A stretch of DNA of 44,009 nt from Actinomycetes bacterium (lineage in GTDB: Bacteria > Actinomycetota > Humimicrobiia > JAHJRV01). Positions 4,394-35,577 of this stretch are shown one piece after another. Position 1 is the first letter of the stretch, and each line of letters begins with the position of its first letter. The notes under the pieces were generated by a model. That model saw nothing but the letters and a program-made list of their open reading frames with translations. It searched no databases and was not told the DNA's origin. The DNA lies in the NCBI GenBank assembly GCA_023129485.1, contig JAGMBY010000036.1, forward strand, positions 1-44,009, read 5' to 3'. The position numbers and the translations under genes were made by a program.

Positions 4394-5362
4394 TTAAGGT
4401 ACTCTGGATTCTAAAATCCAATATCTGATTTTATTTTCTGCTTTTATTCTTAACTCCTTTGCTAACTCTTCGGGAGATATTAGTTTTTCTAATGCTTTGT
4501 TCCATGCACCTGATTCAATATATTCATGTAATATTCTTGTTCTCTCTAAAATTATTGCATTTTCAGGGCTTACAAGTCTGCATGCTCCACAGAATAAACA
4601 CCATTTATCTTCTAATTTTAATTTATCTTTTTTCTCATCATACGTGATTGCCTTTGTAGGACATACATCAGCTGCAGCTTTAAACCTCTTAGGCATTAGT
4701 TCATAATTAATGGAGATTTTTCCTTCAATTGGTTTTGTAACTTTTATAGCATTATAAGGGCAGTCATAAACACATTTTGAGCAATATGTACACTTTTCTT
4801 TATCTATCTTTACATCTATTATCTTTTTTATTTTTTCTATTTTCTTCTTTTTCTCTTGAGATTTTGCTAACTTTCTTTCTTTCTCTGAACCTTCAGCCTT
4901 CTTTTCTTTTTTAGAAACTTCAATTTCTTTTTCATATATAACTTCTATAGCTTCAAATGGGCAACCTTCCTGGCAAGCAAGCTTACAATCAGGTATACAT
5001 TTTTTTACATCTACTTCAATCTCCCTAATTAAAGTAGGGAATGCTTCTAAATCTACTGAAGGGATTGTTTCTTTACCATTTACTTTTAATTTAAATGCGT
5101 TATATGGACAGAGGATTACGCATTCTCCACAATATATACATTTATCTGGGTCAGCATCAATTTTTGGTTTTTCAATTAATGAGCCATTCTCAATTTGTGC
5201 ATCTATTAAACTAAGAGCTTCCTTGGGACATATTATTGTACAGATCTCACATCCACAACATAAATCCTTATCAAGTGTTAGTGAATATTCTTTTGTAATG
5301 GTTTTCATCTCAAGTATTAACTTATCTCTCTTGTCTATTTTTACGGGAGTTCCCCTTTTCAA
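4394..5362 (-). CDS. Multi-[4Fe-4S] polyferredoxin
   Basis: Several CxxCxxCxxxC motifs (CCGCEICTIICP, CIYCGECVILCP, CTYCSKCVYDCP, CLFCGAC) plus a K/E-rich linker. Divergent Cys motif 'CIPDCKLACQEGCP'. Confidence 0.85.
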   Translation of the reverse strand: MKRGTPVKIDKRDKLILEMKTITKEYSLTLDKDLCCGCEICTIICPKEALSLIDAQIENGSLIEKPKIDADPDKCIYCGECVILCPYNAFKLKVNGKETIPSVDLEAFPTLIREIEVDVKKCIPDCKLACQEGCPFEAIEVIYEKEIEVSKKEKKAEGSEKERKLAKSQEKKKKIEKIKKIIDVKIDKEKCTYCSKCVYDCPYNAIKVTKPIEGKISINYELMPKRFKAAADVCPTKAITYDEKKDKLKLEDKWCLFCGACRLVSPENAIILERTRILHEYIESGAWNKALEKLISPEELAKELRIKAENKIRYWILESRVP

Positions 5363-5501: not shown

Positions 5502-6428
5502 TTATTTAATTTTATTAAGTACTTGGTCCACTTTTACTATATGAAGATCAAAACCCAATTGATATGGATCAACTCCAAGTGCAAGACAAAGTAATTCCGG
5601 GTAATAAAATACTGGTAAATTATATTCTTTATTAAATCTCCTTTCTACTACTTTTTGATTTCTATCAAATTGTGTCTGACAAAATGGACATAATGTTACA
5701 ATACAGTCAACTCCTGATGTCTTGATATTATCTAAATTTTCTTTGGCAATATTTAATGATAAATCCATATTTACTCCCAGTAGAGGAGCTCCACAGCAGA
5801 ACATTTTTCTCATTCTGGGGAGACTGTCAGCGCCTAAGGCAACAATTAATTCATCTAAACTTTTTGGCTCTTCAGGATCATCAAAATTCATTACATCACT
5901 TGGTCTGACTAAATGACATCCATAAAATGCAGCTACTTTTAATCCATATAATGGTTTTTTTATCATATTAGTTATTTGATTAGTTCCTATATCTAAATAT
6001 AAAACCTCCGCGATATGTTTAACTATAGTATTTCCTTCATATTTCCTATTAAGAGGTAACAATATTTTATTTACTTTTTCTAAAAGCTCACTATCTTCTG
6101 ATAAAGCATGGCTCGTCTCTTTTAATGTCTCATAACATCCATTACAAAGAGTAAGGATGTCTTTTCCTATTTCCTGAGCAATACAGAGATTTCTTGCTCC
6201 CATAGAAAGCCATGTTAGCTCACTTATTGCTTTTATTCCTATTGGATCTGGACAACAGGAAAAATTGTCAGTTTCTGTAATTTTTATTTCTAAGATTTCT
6301 AATGCTCTTCTTGCAGCCACTTCCATATAAGGTAAGGAGCTTGGAATCAAACAACCTTTAAATAATAGATAATCCTTATTTTCTTTTTCTAAATTTGATT
6401 CTTCTTTAGTTGCTCTTGTCCTTTTCAT
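5502..6428 (-). CDS. hdrB: Heterodisulfide reductase subunit B-like protein (two CCG domains)
   Basis: Two CCG-type motifs: 'FSCCPDPIG...LCNGC' and 'FYGCHLVRPS...MFCCGAP...TLCPFCQTQFD'. Downstream of HdrC. Confidence 0.92.
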   Translation of the reverse strand: MKRTRATKEESNLEKENKDYLLFKGCLIPSSLPYMEVAARRALEILEIKITETDNFSCCPDPIGIKAISELTWLSMGARNLCIAQEIGKDILTLCNGCYETLKETSHALSEDSELLEKVNKILLPLNRKYEGNTIVKHIAEVLYLDIGTNQITNMIKKPLYGLKVAAFYGCHLVRPSDVMNFDDPEEPKSLDELIVALGADSLPRMRKMFCCGAPLLGVNMDLSLNIAKENLDNIKTSGVDCIVTLCPFCQTQFDRNQKVVERRFNKEYNLPVFYYPELLCLALGVDPYQLGFDLHIVKVDQVLNKIK

Positions 6429-6459: not shown

Positions 6460-6972
6460 TTATTTTTTAATTTCTTTTTCTAAAAATAAATTGGTTCCAG
6501 TTTGTTTTAAAATCCTCTTTATATCTTTTTCTACAGAAGTTTGCACTAATTTTGGCAAATTTAACTGTTCTCTTCTTCTCTCAGTAGCCGAGCTGATTGA
6601 TGATATTCTGCCTGTTTTAGCTATCATTTTGAGTTCATTTACATATCCCTCCGGGATACCCCTTACTTTTGCTGCGATATTTTTTAATTTGACTATGATT
6701 TCAGAAACGGGTATCTTTTGAGGGCACCTTTCTAAACAAGTATGACAATAACAACAAAACCAGAGTAAATCATTATTAATTATTTCATCTATCTCTCCTC
6801 GAGAGAGTGCTAACATAATCTTTCTTGGATTAAAATTTTCATTTACCCAGGCTACCGGACACCCTCCAACACATGTACCACATTGATAGCAGACCTGAAC
6901 TTTCTTCTGAAAATCCTCTCCTCCAATTTCTTCTATCAACTTTTCCAAATCTTTTTCAATTTCCATATTCAA
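6460..6972 (-). CDS. hdrC: Heterodisulfide reductase subunit C-like protein (2x[4Fe-4S])
   Basis: 'CYQCGTCVGGCPVAWVNENFNPRKIMLALSRGE...WFCCYCHTCLERCPQKIPVSEII' is a typical HdrC pattern. Confidence 0.92.
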   Translation of the reverse strand: MNMEIEKDLEKLIEEIGGEDFQKKVQVCYQCGTCVGGCPVAWVNENFNPRKIMLALSRGEIDEIINNDLLWFCCYCHTCLERCPQKIPVSEIIVKLKNIAAKVRGIPEGYVNELKMIAKTGRISSISSATERRREQLNLPKLVQTSVEKDIKRILKQTGTNLFLEKEIKK

Positions 6973-7029
6973 ATCCCATAAAAATTTAAAACAATAAGTT
7001 ACTATTCATTTTTAAAATTCAAGTCATTT

Positions 7030-7097
7030 AGATTCTTCGCTGTGCTCAGAATGACAGCTTTTTTATTGTCACCCTGAGCGCAACGAAGGGTCTCATT
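7030..7097. repeat. Dispersed 'gtcattctgag...gcgaagaatctca' intergenic repeat, copy 1 (inverted pair)
   Basis: agattcttcgctgtgctcagaatgaca ... gtcaccctgagcgcaacgaagggtctca, between hdrC and hdrA. Confidence 0.8.
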
Positions 7098-7182
7098 AGT
7101 TCTTAGTTTATAGTTTAACTAAGAAATATTATTCATTGCTTATTTAGTCTTTATTAAGTAGAGATTTTATATACAAAGCTTC

Positions 7183-9651
7183 TTATGCCTCAATATCAAC
7201 TTTTTCATCAGCTAATAATATTTTAGCTACATCTGGATCTTCCCTAAATGTCTTTATTCTCTTTTCTAATTCAGGTTTTGCCTTTTCATTTTCTTCTTTT
7301 ATTCTTTCAATTCCTATTGATTTAAGAGTTTCACTCGATTCTTTCATAACTTTCGAGAAAGTCTGCCCTTCTGATGCGCTCATCCATTTAACACTGAATC
7401 TTTCTGGTGAAATACCAGCTCTCTCTAAAATCTTTGGCACAGCTTTTAGCCTTCTTTCAGCATGGTGCTGACCTGTTATGTAATGGCAATCCTGAGGATG
7501 GCATCCTGAAGCTAAAACCATTCCTGCACCTATTCTAAAAGCTTCATAAATAAATTTTCTATCTAATCTACCAGAGCACATAACCTTTATTATTCTGTTA
7601 TCAGGTGGATATTTCAGGTGGCTATTTCCAGCAGTGTCAGCAGCGCCAAAACTACACCAATGGCAGGTGAAGACTAATATCTTTTCTTCAGGTTTTTCTC
7701 TGAGTATAGCGTGAATTTGAGCTACAATCTGTACATCTGTATAGTGCAGCTGTGTTATTGCACCTTCCGGGCAATCAGCAACACAGGTTCCACATCCATG
7801 GCACTTTGCACCAATTACATATGCTGGTTTACCTTCAGGAGCGATAATTGCTCCATATGGACATCTTGTTTCACATATACCACACTTTTTCCTGACATTT
7901 CTACATTTATCAGCATCAACAAATGCTATTAGAGGTTCAATCTCCCACTCAGGGCTTGATAAAATTCTACTTGCTCTTGAAGAAGCAGCACTACCCTGAG
8001 CTACACTATAAGGTATGTCCTTTGGTCCTTGGGAAGATCCTGCTATAAACACACCCTCTGTTGGAGTATCTATAGGTTTCAATTTTGGATGACTCTCCAT
8101 ATAGAAACCACTTGGACCACTTGTTACTCCAAGTTTACTTCCTAATGTTCTAGAATCTGGTCGAGGCTCAGCTGCTGTTGACAGTATTACAATATCTACC
8201 TCATCTCTAATTGCTTTTCCTTTGGCCAAGTCTTCAGAATAAATGAATAGATTATGATTATTAGGATCTTGTGCAATTTCAGATGGTTTTCCCTGAATGA
8301 ACTTAATTCCTTCCTCTCTTGCTCTTCTATAAAACTCCTCATATCCCTTAGATGGAGTTCTAATATCCATATAATATATAGATATATCTAAATCTGGATA
8401 TTTTTCTCTTAAAATAAGTGAATTTTTAATTGTGTACATGCAACAGAATCCCGAGCAGTATTCATGAATATCATCTCTTGACCCAACACACTGGATAAAT
8501 GCCACTTTCCCTGGAGCTTTCATATCTGAGGGTCTGTATAGTTTTCCCATTGTTGGACCACTTTCATCAAGAAGTCTTTCTAACTCCAGTGCTGTCAAGA
8601 CATTTGGATATCTACCATATCCATACTGTTTTATAGGAGTTGGATCATAGATGTCATACCCAGTAGCAACTATAATGGTTCCAATATCAAGTTCTATTAT
8701 TTCTTCTTTTTGGGAAAAGTCTATAGCTTCAAGTTTGCCACACGCTTCAATACATTTAAAACATTCAATACATGCATCCATATCTATTGTATAGACCAAT
8801 GGAACTGCTTGAGCAAAAGGAACATATATGGCTTTTCTTGTCGTAGTACCTTCATCAAATTCATTCGGAACCTCAATAGGACAAACATCGACACATAAAC
8901 CACAACCATTACATTTCTCGGGTATCACAAAACGAGGCTTTTTCTTTACCTTTACCTTGAAGTTTCCAACAAAACCTCTTACTTCCTCTAATTCACTATA
9001 TGTGAGAACATTAATCTTCGGATGATGCCCCGCATCAACCATCTTGGGGGCTAAGATTCATATAGAACAATCCATGGTGGGGAATGTTTTATCGAGTTGT
9101 GCCATTCTACCACCAATTGATGGTTCCTTTTCAATGAGATAAGTTTCATACCCCATGTCCCCAAGGTCTAAAGCAGTGCTTATTCCAGCAATTCCAGCAC
9201 CAATTACTAAAGCTTTATTTGTTACTGGAACTTTTATGGTTTCGAGTGGTGCTAAATACCTTGCCTTAGCTACAGCGGAACGAATCAAATCAAATGCTTT
9301 CTCAAAAGCTTCTTCTGGATAATCAGGATGAACCCAAGTACAATGTTCTCTGATATTTGCCATTTCCATAAGGTATGGATTTAACCCTGCTTCATAAACA
9401 CACACTCTAAATGTAGGTTCATGTAATCTTGGAGAACAAGCTGAGACTACAACCCTGTTGAGGTTATATTCTTTTATGCTATCTTTTATCAAAACTTGAC
9501 CAGGGTCTGAACAAGCATATCCATGATCTTTAGCAACAACAACACCCGGAAGTTCTGATGCCCTCTCAGCCAATTTCTTGGGATCTATTACTCCTGCAAT
9601 ATTTGAACCACAATGGCATACAAAAACACCTATTCTTAAATCCTCTTCCAT
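7183..9651 (-). CDS. hdrA: HdrA-MvhD fusion, probable selenoprotein with in-frame TGA (Sec) at 9058-9060
   Basis: ORFs 9058..9651 and 7183..9042 are in the same frame, separated by one TGA and five sense codons: ...[18 protein letters not shown]-[TGA][44 protein letters not shown]... The remainder has FAD/4Fe-4S HdrA domains and a C-terminal MvhD domain ([16 protein letters not shown]...[14 protein letters not shown]...GCHPQDCHY). Confidence 0.9.
9027..9051 (-). promoter_or_regulatory. Candidate bacterial SECIS hairpin
   Basis: Coding-strand GCCCC-CA-AGAUGGUUGA-UG(C)-GGGGC, starting 7 nt after the UGA. G-containing apical loop; five G-C pairs plus two more. Confidence 0.6.
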
Positions 9652-9704
9652 ACTCTCCTTTTAATGAATATGTTTAATAAAACTTTTATTATAAATTAGT
9701 TAGA

Positions 9705-10199
9705 TTAGCTCTTTACTAATTCCTCCAATAGTTTTCCTACAACTTCTCTTCTCATCTTTTGTGCAACTTCTTCTGGGGTTGAGAGTGAGAGAGCTTCCTT
9801 TGGACAGAATTCAACACACTTTGGCTTTTCTAAGTCTTTACATAAATCACATATTCTAACTGTTTTTTCTGCAGCATCTAATGTAATAGCCCCAAATTCA
9901 CACGCCTCTATACACCAACCGCATCCATCACACTTATCATCATCAATAATTATTATTCCTGTTTCCTCACTCTGGGTGAGTGCTTTATGAGGACATGATG
10001 CAACGCATGGTGGGTCTTCACAAAGTCTACACGCAACTGACATTGTTAAGACTGGTTCTATCCTAACATTACGTATCCTTGATTTAAGTGGATTAAACGC
10101 TCCTGTTTTTTCAAGTGAACAAACAAGTTCACACCATTGACATCCAACACATTTATCTGGATCACAAACTATATACCTATGTTTTCCTAAGTGCTCCAT
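9705..10199 (-). CDS. 4Fe-4S ferredoxin-type electron transfer subunit of AOR
   Basis: Multiple cluster motifs: CVGCQWCELVCS, CRLCEDPPCVASCP, CDGCGWCIEAC, CDLC...CVEFCP. Abuts the AOR gene (shared coordinate 10199). Confidence 0.88.
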   Translation of the reverse strand: MEHLGKHRYIVCDPDKCVGCQWCELVCSLEKTGAFNPLKSRIRNVRIEPVLTMSVACRLCEDPPCVASCPHKALTQSEETGIIIIDDDKCDGCGWCIEACEFGAITLDAAEKTVRICDLCKDLEKPKCVEFCPKEALSLSTPEEVAQKMRREVVGKLLEELVKS

Positions 10200-12040
10200 T
10201 AGACTCCTACCTCCTTTGCAATATCATCTAAGCCTAATTCAACCAACTTCTCCTTGGGTATCATACCATCCTTTGTCCATCCTCTCGCTTTATAATAAGC
10301 ATCCTTTAAGAACTCTAAGTCTTTTTTCTTGATTAAATGTCCCTTTGCAACTCCCTCTGGAATAGGGTCTTTCATAATTCTTGGAGGAAGAGTATCATCT
10401 TTTCTTGTCCAACCCTCTCTTATATTAAATGCTTTCTTAAGATTCCAGATTCTTTCTCCAGTCTTTTTCAACTCATCTGGTGTCATCTCTATACCTGTTG
10501 TGAGAGTATATAAATCGCTTGCTTCCTTATAATAATCCTCGAAGCATCCTCTGATGAATTTACAGAGTACAAATGAATCAAAAGTGGCAGCATAATTTTC
10601 TCTTTCTGCAGCATATTTACCTTTTTCTTTATCATATGTGAATCTATCAGTCCATCCTTTTATGTCAGCCTCATAAGCTCCAGACCTGTTATGACAAGGA
10701 CCTCTTGTACCCACAGCACATCCTAAAGCAAAAGTTTTAAGTCCTCTTGGGTCATATCCTGCACATTCCAATCCTTTCACATTCATTGCAAAATGTTTGG
10801 AACCCTTACCAATTTTTTCTGAGGCTCTCTTAGTTCCCTCTGCCAAAAGGTCACCAATTCCTTCTCTTTTGGCAATCTTCTCAATTAACTTTATATATGG
10901 CTCATGATTTCCAAATTTTATATCTAATCCACCAGTGTCTTTTTTAGTAAATATACCTTTCTCATAACATTCCATAGCCCATGCAACTGTTACACCAGTA
11001 CTCATAGTATCCATTCCATAAAAGTCACATAATTCACAAGCCTTGATAATTGCTGGCATATAATCAATACCACAACATGGTCCTAAAGCAAAAAGAGATT
11101 CATATTCCACTTTGGTTCTCGCATCTTTATAAGGTCCATCCTCAACCTTGGCAATATGTTCACAAGCTATGGGACATCCAGAACATGCTACAGTTTTTTC
11201 TACATAATGTTCATGCAGATATTCACCACTTACCAACTCTGCTTTATCCCATGTTGCTGCTTGGAAATTTTTGGTTGGTAAAGTGGCTAACCTATTCATA
11301 ACAAGTACATTTGCGGGGGTACCAAGGATTCTATATTTTTCAGTTGGTGTTCCCTGTGCTATTTTCATGAGATCAAAACATTTTTTAGATAGTTCTTCTG
11401 GGTTAGCTACGTTTATAGACTTTGATCCCCTAAGTGCAATGGCTTTTAAATTCTTTGAGCCCATAACTGCTCCCTGACCTGTTCTTCCAGCTTTTCTTCC
11501 TCTATCATTAGAAATACAAGCAAACTTTACTAGATTTTCTCCTGCCAATCCTATAGTACATACCCTTACATTTTGATCCCCTATTTCATCTCTTATTGCT
11601 TCTTCAGTTTCAAAGCAACCTAGTCCAGCAAGATGTTTAGCATTTTTAAAATGAACATCATCATCATCAATAAAAAGATAAATTAAATCTTCGCTTTTTC
11701 CTTTTATAACAATGCCATCATATCCTGCTCTCTTTATCGTTTGAGACCAATAACTTGATGACAAAGAATCTCCAAGAAATCCTGTAAGTGGTGATTTTGA
11801 AGCTATTCCATGTTTTGTTCCAACTGGTACTATTGTTCCACCAAAAGCACTTGCTGAAAAAGTTAAAACATTCTCAGGGCTTAAGGGGTCAATACCTGGT
11901 TTAATATTGTCATAAAGTAATTTTGAAGCTAAACCTACACCACCTAAGTATTTTTTTAGGAACTCCTCACTAACAGTTTGAACAGATGTTTCCTTACTGG
12001 AAAGATCAATATGTAGGATTCTCCCGCTATAAGAGTACAT
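10199..12040 (-). CDS. Aldehyde ferredoxin oxidoreductase family (W/Mo-bispterin) protein
   Basis: 'YSGRILHIDLSSKETSVQTVSEEFLKKYLGGVGLASKLLYDNIKPGIDPLSPENVLTFSASAFGGT' and 'GRKAGRTGQGAVMGSKNLKAIALRG', with internal 'CSGCPIACEH' cluster motif. Confidence 0.93.
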   Translation of the reverse strand: MYSYSGRILHIDLSSKETSVQTVSEEFLKKYLGGVGLASKLLYDNIKPGIDPLSPENVLTFSASAFGGTIVPVGTKHGIASKSPLTGFLGDSLSSSYWSQTIKRAGYDGIVIKGKSEDLIYLFIDDDDVHFKNAKHLAGLGCFETEEAIRDEIGDQNVRVCTIGLAGENLVKFACISNDRGRKAGRTGQGAVMGSKNLKAIALRGSKSINVANPEELSKKCFDLMKIAQGTPTEKYRILGTPANVLVMNRLATLPTKNFQAATWDKAELVSGEYLHEHYVEKTVACSGCPIACEHIAKVEDGPYKDARTKVEYESLFALGPCCGIDYMPAIIKACELCDFYGMDTMSTGVTVAWAMECYEKGIFTKKDTGGLDIKFGNHEPYIKLIEKIAKREGIGDLLAEGTKRASEKIGKGSKHFAMNVKGLECAGYDPRGLKTFALGCAVGTRGPCHNRSGAYEADIKGWTDRFTYDKEKGKYAAERENYAATFDSFVLCKFIRGCFEDYYKEASDLYTLTTGIEMTPDELKKTGERIWNLKKAFNIREGWTRKDDTLPPRIMKDPIPEGVAKGHLIKKKDLEFLKDAYYKARGWTKDGMIPKEKLVELGLDDIAKEVGV

Positions 12041-14605: not shown

Positions 14606-17600
14606 CTATAATTTAAAGGTTTTGCGGTCTTTGAATTCTGATCTCTTTCCCCTATTCCATTGGCTAACAGGTCTTATATATCCAACCACTCTTGAATAAA
14701 CTTCTGTAGTTGCTCCACATTCTGGACAAGTTTCATGTTCACCCGAAATGTAACCATGTTGTTGACATATACTAAAGGTAGGGGTAATTGTAAAATAAGG
14801 AAGTCTATAATTTTCTGCAATCTTTTTTACTAATATTTTAGAACTCTCACCATCAGGCAATTTTTCTCCAACAAAGCCATGAAAAACAGTACCACCAGTA
14901 TATTTGGTTTGAAGTTCATCTTGCAAATCTAAGGCTTCAAAGATGTCATCAGTATATCCAACAGGAAGCTGTGTTGAATTTGTATAATAAGGAGCTGCTT
15001 CATTTTTAAAAGCTTCTTCATTTGCGCATATAATCTCCAGGAATTTTTCCTTATCAGTTTTTGCAAGTCTAAAGGTTGCACCTTCCCCAGGTGTTGCTTC
15101 AAGATTATAAATATTGTCAGTTTCATTTTGATAATCCATAAGTTTTTCTCTCATAAAATCCAAAACTCTTATAGAGAATTCTCTACCTTCTTTAGTTGTA
15201 ATATCTTTTCTTAAAAAGTTTAGGCATGCTTCGTTCATTCCTATTAAACCAATTGTTGAAAAATGGTTTCTCCAATAACCACCAAATCTTTTTTTAATTG
15301 AATTAAGATAATATTTTGCAAATGGATAAAGATTATTTTCTGTGAATCTTTCGAGTATTTTTCTCTTAATCTCAAGACTTTTTTTTGCTAAATCCATTTT
15401 TTCAGAAAGTCTATTAAGGAATTCCTTTTTTGTTTTTGAGAAGTAACCAATTCTTGGCATATTAATTGTTACTACTCCAATACTACCAGTTAGGGGATTT
15501 GCTGCAAAAAATCCACCACCTCGTTTGCGCAGTTCTCTCTGGTCGATCCTGAGATGGCAACACATGCTACGGGCATCTTCGGGTTTCATGTCAGAATTTA
15601 TAAAATTAGCAAAATATGGTGTACCATATTTAGAAGTCATATTCCATATCGGCTCAAGCACTGGATTATCCCAATCAAAATCTTTGGTAATGTTGTATGT
15701 AGGAATTGGAAAAGTAAATACTCTTCCTTTGGCATCACCTTCCGTCATGACTTCTGCAAATACTTTATTGAAAAGGTCTATCTCTTTTTGAAATTCACCG
15801 TATTGTGCATTCTGTATTTTTCCACCAATAATAACATGCTCATTAGCAATAATGTCTGGAGGTACTAAATCCATTGTTACATTAGTAAACGGGGTATTGT
15901 GAAAAAGAAGAAGTCCAGCACCGCCAGAGAAATTCTCCTGGGGTAAATCAACAGAAAGATCATACTCAAATTCTTTCTCATACTTAAATTCATCCACCCG
16001 ACTGCAAATCCTAGCAGTAAAATCACCCACAGAGTAAGCCTCTTTTCTTTTTTTGTTTTTAAAAATCCTCAAAGTATATTGATTACTCCATTCTTTTTTT
16101 CTTCCTTCTTCTTCGTAAACACTAAATTTATAACCGTTCATACTAAGAAGCAAAGAAAGTCCAGCTGAAAGTTTTTTTGAAGTTGTTGACAAATCCCAGT
16201 ATTTCTCATATTCGGATCCATCGCCGGACAGGATGTTTTTAAGAAAAGTTTCTTGAAGTTTAGGCTCCAGTTGATAAATAAACCAGGGAACCTCTTTTTG
16301 TGTACTATAAATACCACAAACTGCAACCACCAAAGCAGCTAAAATACCATTACCAGAAATTTTGTAAACAGGCTTGGTTTTAGTTCCTTTTTGAGAATAA
16401 CCCTTTGATTTTTCTATTCTTCCAAGGATTCCTAAACTTTTTAAAATTCTTTTAATCTCCTTAGGCTCACTCTGGGAAATAAAAAATGAGTTACTGATCT
16501 CAGCATGACCCTCAGCCACATACCAACCACAAATTTTAACAAAATTTAATAGGTCTTTTCCTTGCAAAAATCTTGAAATCTTAATCTTACTATTTCTAAG
16601 GTAAAATCCTAAGGCATCATTTTCTTCCAGAAACTTCAAAAAGATATCAAGTCTGACAATTTTTTTTCTCTTCCAATCATTCCATACACCCCGGTCATGG
16701 AGATTAAATTGAATATAAAATGGAGTTATTCCCCCATAATACTCTTTTACTTTTTCTTTTAATTTATCAATTGTTCCCCCGGGAACATTTACATAAACCT
16801 TTCGCCAGAGATATGGAAATTCCTGAAGAATTTCTAAAAGATCAAGTTTTTTCTTATTTCCTTCATTCTTCACTGATTTAATAGCTATAAAGCTGTTATT
16901 GGGCTTTAATTTGCTATTGAAATGTTCATCTCTTACCTCTTGGGCTGAAAAAGGTTTAACAATAAATTCTCCATTGAGTTTTTCAAATCTAAAAAGTGAA
17001 TGGGCTGGAGAAACAGAAGCAGTTCCTTTACTTGTCCTGATTTTAACAAACTTACTCCCTTTAGGTACTCTATGTCTGATAAAAGCCTTAACTTTTACCC
17101 AGACCGCTTCACCCTTTTGATTAAAGGACAAAACCTTGAAATCATCATCATTCTCAATAGCAAAACTACCAGGATTATCTTCCAAAACCTGGTGGGATTT
17201 TTTTTCAAATTGGGAATCTACTAACCCGCCAATTTTTTTTATTTTAATCTTTCCATTCTCTCTAATCAGCACCAGCTCATCCCAGGTTAAACTTTGAAAA
17301 CCTACTCGAGTAGGAATATTTATATTAAACAAAAATTCCTGTATAGCTTGCTTTATTTCTCTATAAGACAATTTGTCATATCTAATAAAAGGGGCTAAAT
17401 ACGTGTCTACTGAACTAAATGCCTCTGCACCTGCAGTCTCACCTTGTAAGGTATAAAAAAAGTTCACTATCTGACCCAAAGCAGCACGAAAATGTTTTGC
17501 TGGCTTACTCTCAATCTTTCCTGGAACCCCACCAAATCCACGAATTAACAGGTCTTTTAAATCCCATCCCGCGCAGTACGGTGCAACCAAGGCTAGGTCA

Positions 17601-18091
17601 TGTATATGAAAATCTCCACAAACATGTGCCTTTCTTACATCTTTAGGATAAATTTTATATAACCAATAATGTGCAGAGATTACTGAGGCAATATGATTAT
17701 TTAATCCCTGAAGAGAATAAGTCATATTACTATTCTCATTAACTCTCCAATCTTCGTTATTAATATATTCATCTACTAAATCAAGGCTTATAGTCTTTTT
17801 TAAATCACGAATTCTGGCGTGTTGGTCTCTGTAGATAATATATGCCTTTGCTGTTTTTATATAACGGGATTCAATCAGAACTGTTTCTACTATATCTTGA
17901 ATCTGCTCAACAGTTGGGGTGTCATCTCTGATAATTTCTTTTGCCCTGTCTAAGACTTTATCGGAGAGCTTTTTTGAGGTATCTAACCCAAATTCTCTTG
18001 TTTCTTGACCTGCTTTGAAAATTGCATCAGTAATGTTTCTTTGATTAAATTTGACTATTCTCCCGTCTCTTTTTTTGATTTTTTTAAACAT
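14606..18091 (-). CDS. nrdD: Anaerobic ribonucleoside-triphosphate reductase (class III) with intein
   Basis: N-extein ...EFLFNINIPTRVGFQ and C-extein TPFTNVTMDLVPP... are continuous with NrdD. C-terminal zinc site CQQHGYISGEHETCPECG and glycyl-radical region RVVGYIRPVSQWNRGKRSEF. Confidence 0.93.
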   Translation of the reverse strand: MFKKIKKRDGRIVKFNQRNITDAIFKAGQETREFGLDTSKKLSDKVLDRAKEIIRDDTPTVEQIQDIVETVLIESRYIKTAKAYIIYRDQHARIRDLKKTISLDLVDEYINNEDWRVNENSNMTYSLQGLNNHIASVISAHYWLYKIYPKDVRKAHVCGDFHIHDLALVAPYCAGWDLKDLLIRGFGGVPGKIESKPAKHFRAALGQIVNFFYTLQGETAGAEAFSSVDTYLAPFIRYDKLSYREIKQAIQEFLFNINIPTRVGFQSLTWDELVLIRENGKIKIKKIGGLVDSQFEKKSHQVLEDNPGSFAIENDDDFKVLSFNQKGEAVWVKVKAFIRHRVPKGSKFVKIRTSKGTASVSPAHSLFRFEKLNGEFIVKPFSAQEVRDEHFNSKLKPNNSFIAIKSVKNEGNKKKLDLLEILQEFPYLWRKVYVNVPGGTIDKLKEKVKEYYGGITPFYIQFNLHDRGVWNDWKRKKIVRLDIFLKFLEENDALGFYLRNSKIKISRFLQGKDLLNFVKICGWYVAEGHAEISNSFFISQSEPKEIKRILKSLGILGRIEKSKGYSQKGTKTKPVYKISGNGILAALVVAVCGIYSTQKEVPWFIYQLEPKLQETFLKNILSGDGSEYEKYWDLSTTSKKLSAGLSLLLSMNGYKFSVYEEEGRKKEWSNQYTLRIFKNKKRKEAYSVGDFTARICSRVDEFKYEKEFEYDLSVDLPQENFSGGAGLLLFHNTPFTNVTMDLVPPDIIANEHVIIGGKIQNAQYGEFQKEIDLFNKVFAEVMTEGDAKGRVFTFPIPTYNITKDFDWDNPVLEPIWNMTSKYGTPYFANFINSDMKPEDARSMCCHLRIDQRELRKRGGGFFAANPLTGSIGVVTINMPRIGYFSKTKKEFLNRLSEKMDLAKKSLEIKRKILERFTENNLYPFAKYYLNSIKKRFGGYWRNHFSTIGLIGMNEACLNFLRKDITTKEGREFSIRVLDFMREKLMDYQNETDNIYNLEATPGEGATFRLAKTDKEKFLEIICANEEAFKNEAAPYYTNSTQLPVGYTDDIFEALDLQDELQTKYTGGTVFHGFVGEKLPDGESSKILVKKIAENYRLPYFTITPTFSICQQHGYISGEHETCPECGATTEVYSRVVGYIRPVSQWNRGKRSEFKDRKTFKL
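15896..17293 (-). mobile_element. NrdD intein with LAGLIDADG-type homing endonuclease (466 aa)
   Basis: Ser1 start (SLTWDELVLIRENGKIKIKKIGGL), splicing block B-like 'SKGTASVSPAHSLF', block F/G 'YDLSVDLPQENFSGGAGLLLFHN|T'. DOD motifs 'ICGWYVAEGHAE' and 'ILSGDGSE'. Confidence 0.92.
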
Positions 18092-35170: not shown

Positions 35171-35294
35171 AATATTAATTTTTCTATATTAATTTAAGTG
35201 GAATAAAAATGATAATCCGTTTTCTTTAATTAGTAATATAAAATTATTGACATTAAACATATTTAGTAGTATTTTTTTAAATACAATTAAATAT

Positions 35295-35458
35295 TAAGCA
35301 TTCAAGAAGTCTTAAAAGTTAAGAGGGAAATCGGTGAAAATCCGATGTGGTCCCGCCACTGTAACTGGGTTACTTTTTAAAATATGCCACTGAACTATAT
35401 GTTTGGGAAGGCTTAAAAAGTGTAAGACCAGAAGTCAGGATACCTCGCTTGAATGTTT
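35295..35458 (+). ncRNA. Cobalamin (AdoCbl-type) riboswitch
   Basis: Conserved boxes 'gagggaaatcggtgaaaatccgatgtggtcccgccactgtaa', 'tgccactg', 'tgggaaggc', 'gaccagaagtcaggatacc', closed by P1 agcattcaag/cttgaatgtt. Upstream of btuF. Confidence 0.95.
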
Positions 35459-35577
35459 AAATTACTACTCTTCGAGGAAAGAGAGGTGATTTTTTTATGG
35501 AAAAAATCTTTTTATAAATTTTAATGGTAATTTTAATTATTAAAGATTTTAAATCTATGATTATAAGGAGAGAATAA

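Follow-up and report, generated by a model that had tools for sequence, protein, structure and literature searches.

A predicted selenocysteine-containing HdrA-MvhD fusion encoded next to an aldehyde:ferredoxin oxidoreductase in an Actinomycetota genome

Introduction

HdrA proteins with a CxxU motif are listed among the prokaryotic selenoproteins under the family model NF040770 (PMC13188914). Selenoprotein HdrA had been reported in bacteria by 2006, in a survey whose operons read hdrA-frhD-frhG-frhA, with glpC (PMC1794560). Two other described systems are close to the locus analyzed here. In the methanogen HdrABC-MvhAGD complex (PDB 5odc), HdrA and MvhD are separate chains with Cys rather than Sec, and a NiFe hydrogenase takes the place of an aldehyde:ferredoxin oxidoreductase (AOR) as partner. 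Class II benzoyl-CoA reductase, BamBCDEFGHI, combines an AOR-family tungsten subunit with Hdr-like modules (PMC13328260, PMC9304861), and HdrA is mentioned for Bam complexes only in a classification of tungsten oxidoreductases from 2026 (PMC13328260). No description of a selenoHdrA-AOR operon was found in the part of the literature that we covered.

The window (the whole 44,009-nucleotide stretch of DNA that was analyzed) shares with selenoprotein HdrA the family model, the CxxU motif, and a downstream bacterial SECIS (bSECIS) but differs in its Actinomycetota lineage, its MvhD fusion, and its position after AOR and ferredoxin genes. The HdrA and MvhD domains of the methanogen complex align over their full length with the window's product, and an AOR-family subunit beside Hdr-like modules recalls Bam. 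Assignment of the window's AOR as a BamB-type large subunit was rejected, since its best PDB match is 1aor (449 bits) and BamB (4z3w) is weaker at 260 bits. Also close are AOR-Fd-HdrA(Sec)-MvhD loci of Anaerolineae (for example L087, L090, L092, and L101, the last from Ornatilinea apprima, an Anaerolineaceae isolate), with HdrA-MvhD about 60 to 64% identical to that of the window, a TGA, a near-identical SECIS sequence, and, as in the window, AOR and ferredoxin genes directly upstream. The genes after hdrA in the Anaerolineae Sec loci differ from those of the window, where HdrC, HdrB, and polyferredoxin follow as they do in three Cys-type loci (L108, L113, and L116). The selenoprotein family is thus already catalogued, and what the window adds is a lineage and a gene setting, not a new kind of protein. 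An earlier note on this DNA had held that an MvhD-fused, AOR-linked version would extend the known set; this stands for the lineage and setting but not for the form itself, because the CxxU family is listed and the MvhD-fused, AOR-linked TGA form is widespread in Anaerolineae.

Results

Features of the locus are given in Table 1. A mechanical list of open reading frames cuts hdrA-mvhD into two pieces, 9058 to 9651 (197 aa) and 7183 to 9042 (619 aa). Read from 9651 to 7183, the frame holds one internal TGA, at codon 198, and no other lesion. The text around the site is ATG GAT TGT TCT ATA TGA ATC TTA GCC CCC AAG ATG. The single-frame reading, the coordinates, and the count of 822 codons with one TGA given in the earlier note were all correct; the note left the minus-strand orientation of the gene unstated.

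Table 1. Coordinates of the hdrA-mvhD locus and associated features in the window
Feature	Positions	Strand	Remarks
AOR large subunit (aldehyde:ferredoxin oxidoreductase, AOR/WOR family)	10199..12040	minus	613 aa; PF01314 and PF02730
Ferredoxin-like small subunit	9705..10199	minus	164 aa; multiple 4Fe-4S motifs; Fer4_11 and related Pfam
Shine-Dalgarno-like motif	9653..9660	minus	AAGGAGAG; ahead of start codon ATG 9651
hdrA-mvhD fusion gene	7183..9651	minus	822 codons; single in-frame TGA read through (predicted)
TGA codon 198	9058..9060	minus	predicted selenocysteine; DCSI-U-ILAPKM (CxxU)
Putative bSECIS hairpin	9020..9040	minus	stem of 6 bp and, across a 1x1 mismatch, 2 bp more; GGG apical loop (9029-9031)
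MvhD/FlpD domain	7312..7680	minus	C-terminal in HdrA, residues 658-780; PF02662, 148 bits
hdrC-like gene	6460..6972	minus	start codon uncertain; TIGR03290, 99 bits (under cut-off of 160)
hdrB-like gene	5502..6428	minus	CCG domains; TIGR03288, 317.9 bits (under cut-off of 345); PF02754
Polyferredoxin-like protein	4394..5362	minus	322 aa; best NCBIfam FwdF, 149.9 bits (under cut-off)

The joined product matched the HdrA2 model NF040770 over residues 6 to 782 with 1101.6 bits, only just over the cut-off of 1100 bits, when Cys was put in for the TGA codon of the query. This agrees with the earlier claim that both halves belong to one HdrA, without a lesion over about 820 codons. The HdrA and FlpD/MvhD domains lie in one frame with no stop between them, and solved homologues cover both parts by sequence: 5odc_A aligned with an E value of 2.6e-256, and MvhD chains in the PDB aligned at residues 655 to 790. 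Three structures—5odc_A, 8rvu_a, and 8rvv_A—span the TGA position without a gap, and all three have Cys there (query residue 198 is chain residue 197 of 5odc_A), as the alignment check proposed in the earlier note had anticipated. Against two congeners (G001 and G003), dN/dS was about 0.05 upstream of the TGA and 0.08 to 0.10 downstream; by this measure, both halves of hdrA-mvhD are under purifying selection. The C-terminal ferredoxin of the window's HdrA (residues about 589 to 604) has the spacing C-X6-C-X2-C-X3-C where the first interval is usually C-X2-C, a variant common to the congeners; many Anaerolineae have still longer gaps.

Both congeners, at 92 to 93% identity, have TGA at the same codon. 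Across 86 homologous loci, the site was TGA in 67 (the window, G001, G003, and another 64 HdrA loci) and TGC or TGT in 19, and TAA or TAG was found in 0 of the 86. The TGA loci are mostly from Anaerolineae, with others from Syntrophaceae, Armatimonadota, Acidobacteriota, Neomarinimicrobiota, and further groups. Outside the genus, HdrA relatives within the phylum of the window have Cys where the site is readable. In the HdrA tree the genus groups next to Anaerolineae, apart from the HdrA of its phylum, which suggests lateral transfer of hdrA into the genus. Two candidate Sec forms were rejected: a match in G031 has Cys at the site, and the in-frame TGA of L029 (G053) apparently terminates hdrA ahead of mvhD, with the CxxC intact. 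The latter TGA, at locus codon 1172 just ahead of the mvhD ATG, shows how automatic searches for TGA readthrough could be misled. A Neomarinimicrobiota MAG (L156, contig DAOUYY010000046.1) has two in-frame TGAs in HdrA at locus codons 1191 to 1194, reading D-U-A-I-U; Sec would then replace each Cys of the CxxC, though this is a single MAG and sequencing error is possible.

The putative bSECIS hairpin lies 26 nt after the UGA, has an energy of about -9.7 kcal/mol, and was obtained both from RNAfold and from the consensus fold. Published bSECIS criteria comprise a loop of 3 to 9 nt, a stem of 4 to 16 bp, a spacing of 16 to 37 nt, a minimum free energy of -7.5 or lower, and a G within the first two loop positions (PMC13188914), and the window's hairpin agrees with all of them. 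However, 4.2% of codons in the window's genes pass our own, similar version of the bSECIS rule by chance, so the case rests on comparison rather than on the fold by itself. The hairpin is more stable than 97% of synonymous recodings, and folds of the 50 to 83 nt after the TGA were not unusual in energy against dinucleotide shuffles (z of about 0.45). The SECIS signal is apparent only by comparison, the fold alone being unexceptional.

Among 52 TGA sequences from the subfamily to which the window belongs, synonymous difference was 0 to 4% at codons +7 to +11 past the TGA and 26 to 77% at the other codons around them, while in 19 Cys relatives codons +7 to +11 differed by 34 to 57%; the freeze covers +19 to +33 nt and is found in TGA relatives only. 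The hairpin is present in 30 of 30 distinct group-1 sequences, where each of the 240 cells is paired; with the partner slid by 1 to 3 columns, pairing falls to 25 to 51%. The only double change in group 1 is that of the window, a compensatory C-G to U-A produced by the codon changes GAC to GAT and CGT to CAT, of which the second turns Arg into His. A second TGA subfamily has the hairpin in its own register, with 98.1% pairing and six compensatory cells.

The window's assembly (1.17 Mb in 103 contigs, 90.3% complete) contains selD, of the Cys type by its sequence, but selA, selB, and selC (tRNA-Sec) were not found in it. The best selB-like match was rejected as EF-Tu by sequence, and the best tRNA-Sec-like matches were rejected as tRNA-Ser. 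By comparison, selA and selB score over cut-off in all three congeners (G001, G002, and G003), which also have a tRNA-Sec at 76 to 78 bits, the three genes being adjacent (in G002 on contig C59). The check suggested in the earlier note, to look for sel genes in the same genome, turned up selD only, with the other three present in the congeners. A 16.7-kb query around the sel cluster (G003 C5:24000-40676) matched the window's assembly only in short, dispersed pieces, although in the hdrA region the same two genomes are about 88% identical. The sel block also includes ychF, which was over cut-off in 3 of 3 congeners and 10 of 14 controls but not in the window's assembly. Absence of a widely conserved gene along with the whole block makes an assembly gap the likely cause of the sel absence; this is argued, not proven. 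Given 90.3% completeness and a missing syntenic block, absence of selB and selC from a complete genome, which the earlier note had named as grounds for doubt, does not apply here. Within the class (G000 to G060), selA was over cut-off only in the window's family and one other (G004), and the large sister family had it in 0 of 35 genomes, so the Sec trait is patchy. G002 has two selA-selB copies, on contigs C19 and C59, perhaps from two strains in one bin; the selB of the C19 copy lies in two frames with a TGA.

The AOR and ferredoxin genes lie upstream of hdrA-mvhD and the HdrC-, HdrB-, and polyferredoxin-like genes downstream, in an order that the congeners share; the polyferredoxin-like protein is 90 to 91% identical in them. 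The AOR-Fd-HdrA order is also kept in most Anaerolineae loci examined. The spacer between hdrA and hdrC (6973-7182, 210 bp) contains a GC-richer stretch at 7030-7093 that occurs once only in the window; the spacer is short in G003 and different and longer in G001. Elsewhere in the window, an anaerobic ribonucleotide reductase, NrdD (14606-18091, minus strand, 1,161 aa), has a mid-protein match to an intein N-terminal splicing region and a LAGLIDADG domain, and a cobalamin riboswitch lies at 35288-35465 on the plus strand (110 bits).

Discussion

On the sequence evidence, we consider it about 95% probable that the UGA at 9058-9060 is decoded as Sec, directed by the hairpin at 9020-9040, to give a single HdrA-MvhD product. 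The Sec reading put forward in the earlier note is supported by Cys/Sec pairing at the site, the conserved TGA, the bSECIS, purifying selection, and the sel genes of the congeners. Decoding would proceed by the SelA/SelB/tRNA-Sec pathway and would yield an 822-aa flavin/iron-sulfur protein with CxxU where other HdrA proteins have CxxC.

The alternatives take the same TGA in different ways. It could be a true stop, with translation restarting at ATG 9042 and the two resulting proteins assembling; an in-frame ATG does lie 15 nt past the TGA, and the relative L029 has a real TGA stop between hdrA and mvhD. Yet the Shine-Dalgarno-like motif is good at ATG 9651, whereas none was found ahead of ATG 9042, the break would fall inside the flavin domain and within the CxxC, the hairpin and the frozen synonymous sites after the TGA are confined to TGA relatives, and all 86 loci have either TGA or a Cys codon at the site, with no TAA or TAG among them. 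A restart, which the earlier note had raised against its own reading, is thus disfavored, and the split gene is highly improbable. An error in sequencing or a decaying pseudogene would explain a lone TGA in an otherwise intact MAG gene, but the same TGA recurs in other congeneric assemblies and the downstream dN/dS indicates strong purifying selection, which leaves this explanation a vanishingly small probability.

Absence of selA, selB, and selC from the window's own assembly bears on two further explanations. One is that UGA encodes tryptophan, or some other amino acid, through a changed code or general readthrough; against it, the genome's own tRNA-Trp has the anticodon CCA and TGA terminates 2 of 23 genes in the window, so UGA does not look reassigned. 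Relatives have Cys at the position and the congeners have the full Sec machinery, and we regard a recoded genetic code, also raised in the earlier note, as extremely unlikely. The other is that the species recently lost Sec decoding, with selA-selB-selC gone and hdrA-mvhD dead, which would fit the lack of all three genes at 90.3% completeness. However, the missing block takes in ychF, selD is still present, and the compensatory change in the window's hairpin suggests continued selection; we judge such a loss very unlikely.

Analogy with HdrABC-MvhAGD and Bam suggests how the predicted selenoprotein might operate. Electrons from the AOR, which probably contains tungsten, would reach the HdrA flavin by way of the ferredoxin subunit and MvhD, and splitting or merging there would involve ferredoxin on one side and an HdrBC-linked acceptor on the other. 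The genes therefore probably encode an electron-bifurcating or confurcating AOR-Hdr complex, whose partners and role are read from gene order. More tentatively, and at somewhat less than even odds, AOR-Fd-selenoHdrA-MvhD(-HdrBC) may be a distinct class of flavin-bifurcating aldehyde oxidoreductase that is widespread in Anaerolineae and reached the actinobacterial genus probably by lateral transfer, with Sec at the CxxU of the HdrA flavin domain tuning bifurcation.

Mechanical reading of open reading frames splits this gene and its relatives, and a selenium-dependent protein of energy metabolism is easily missed in many anaerobe genomes as a result. The AOR link, conserved in an actinobacterial genus and in Anaerolineae, marks a candidate selenium-dependent, probably tungsten-dependent, bifurcating aldehyde oxidoreductase.
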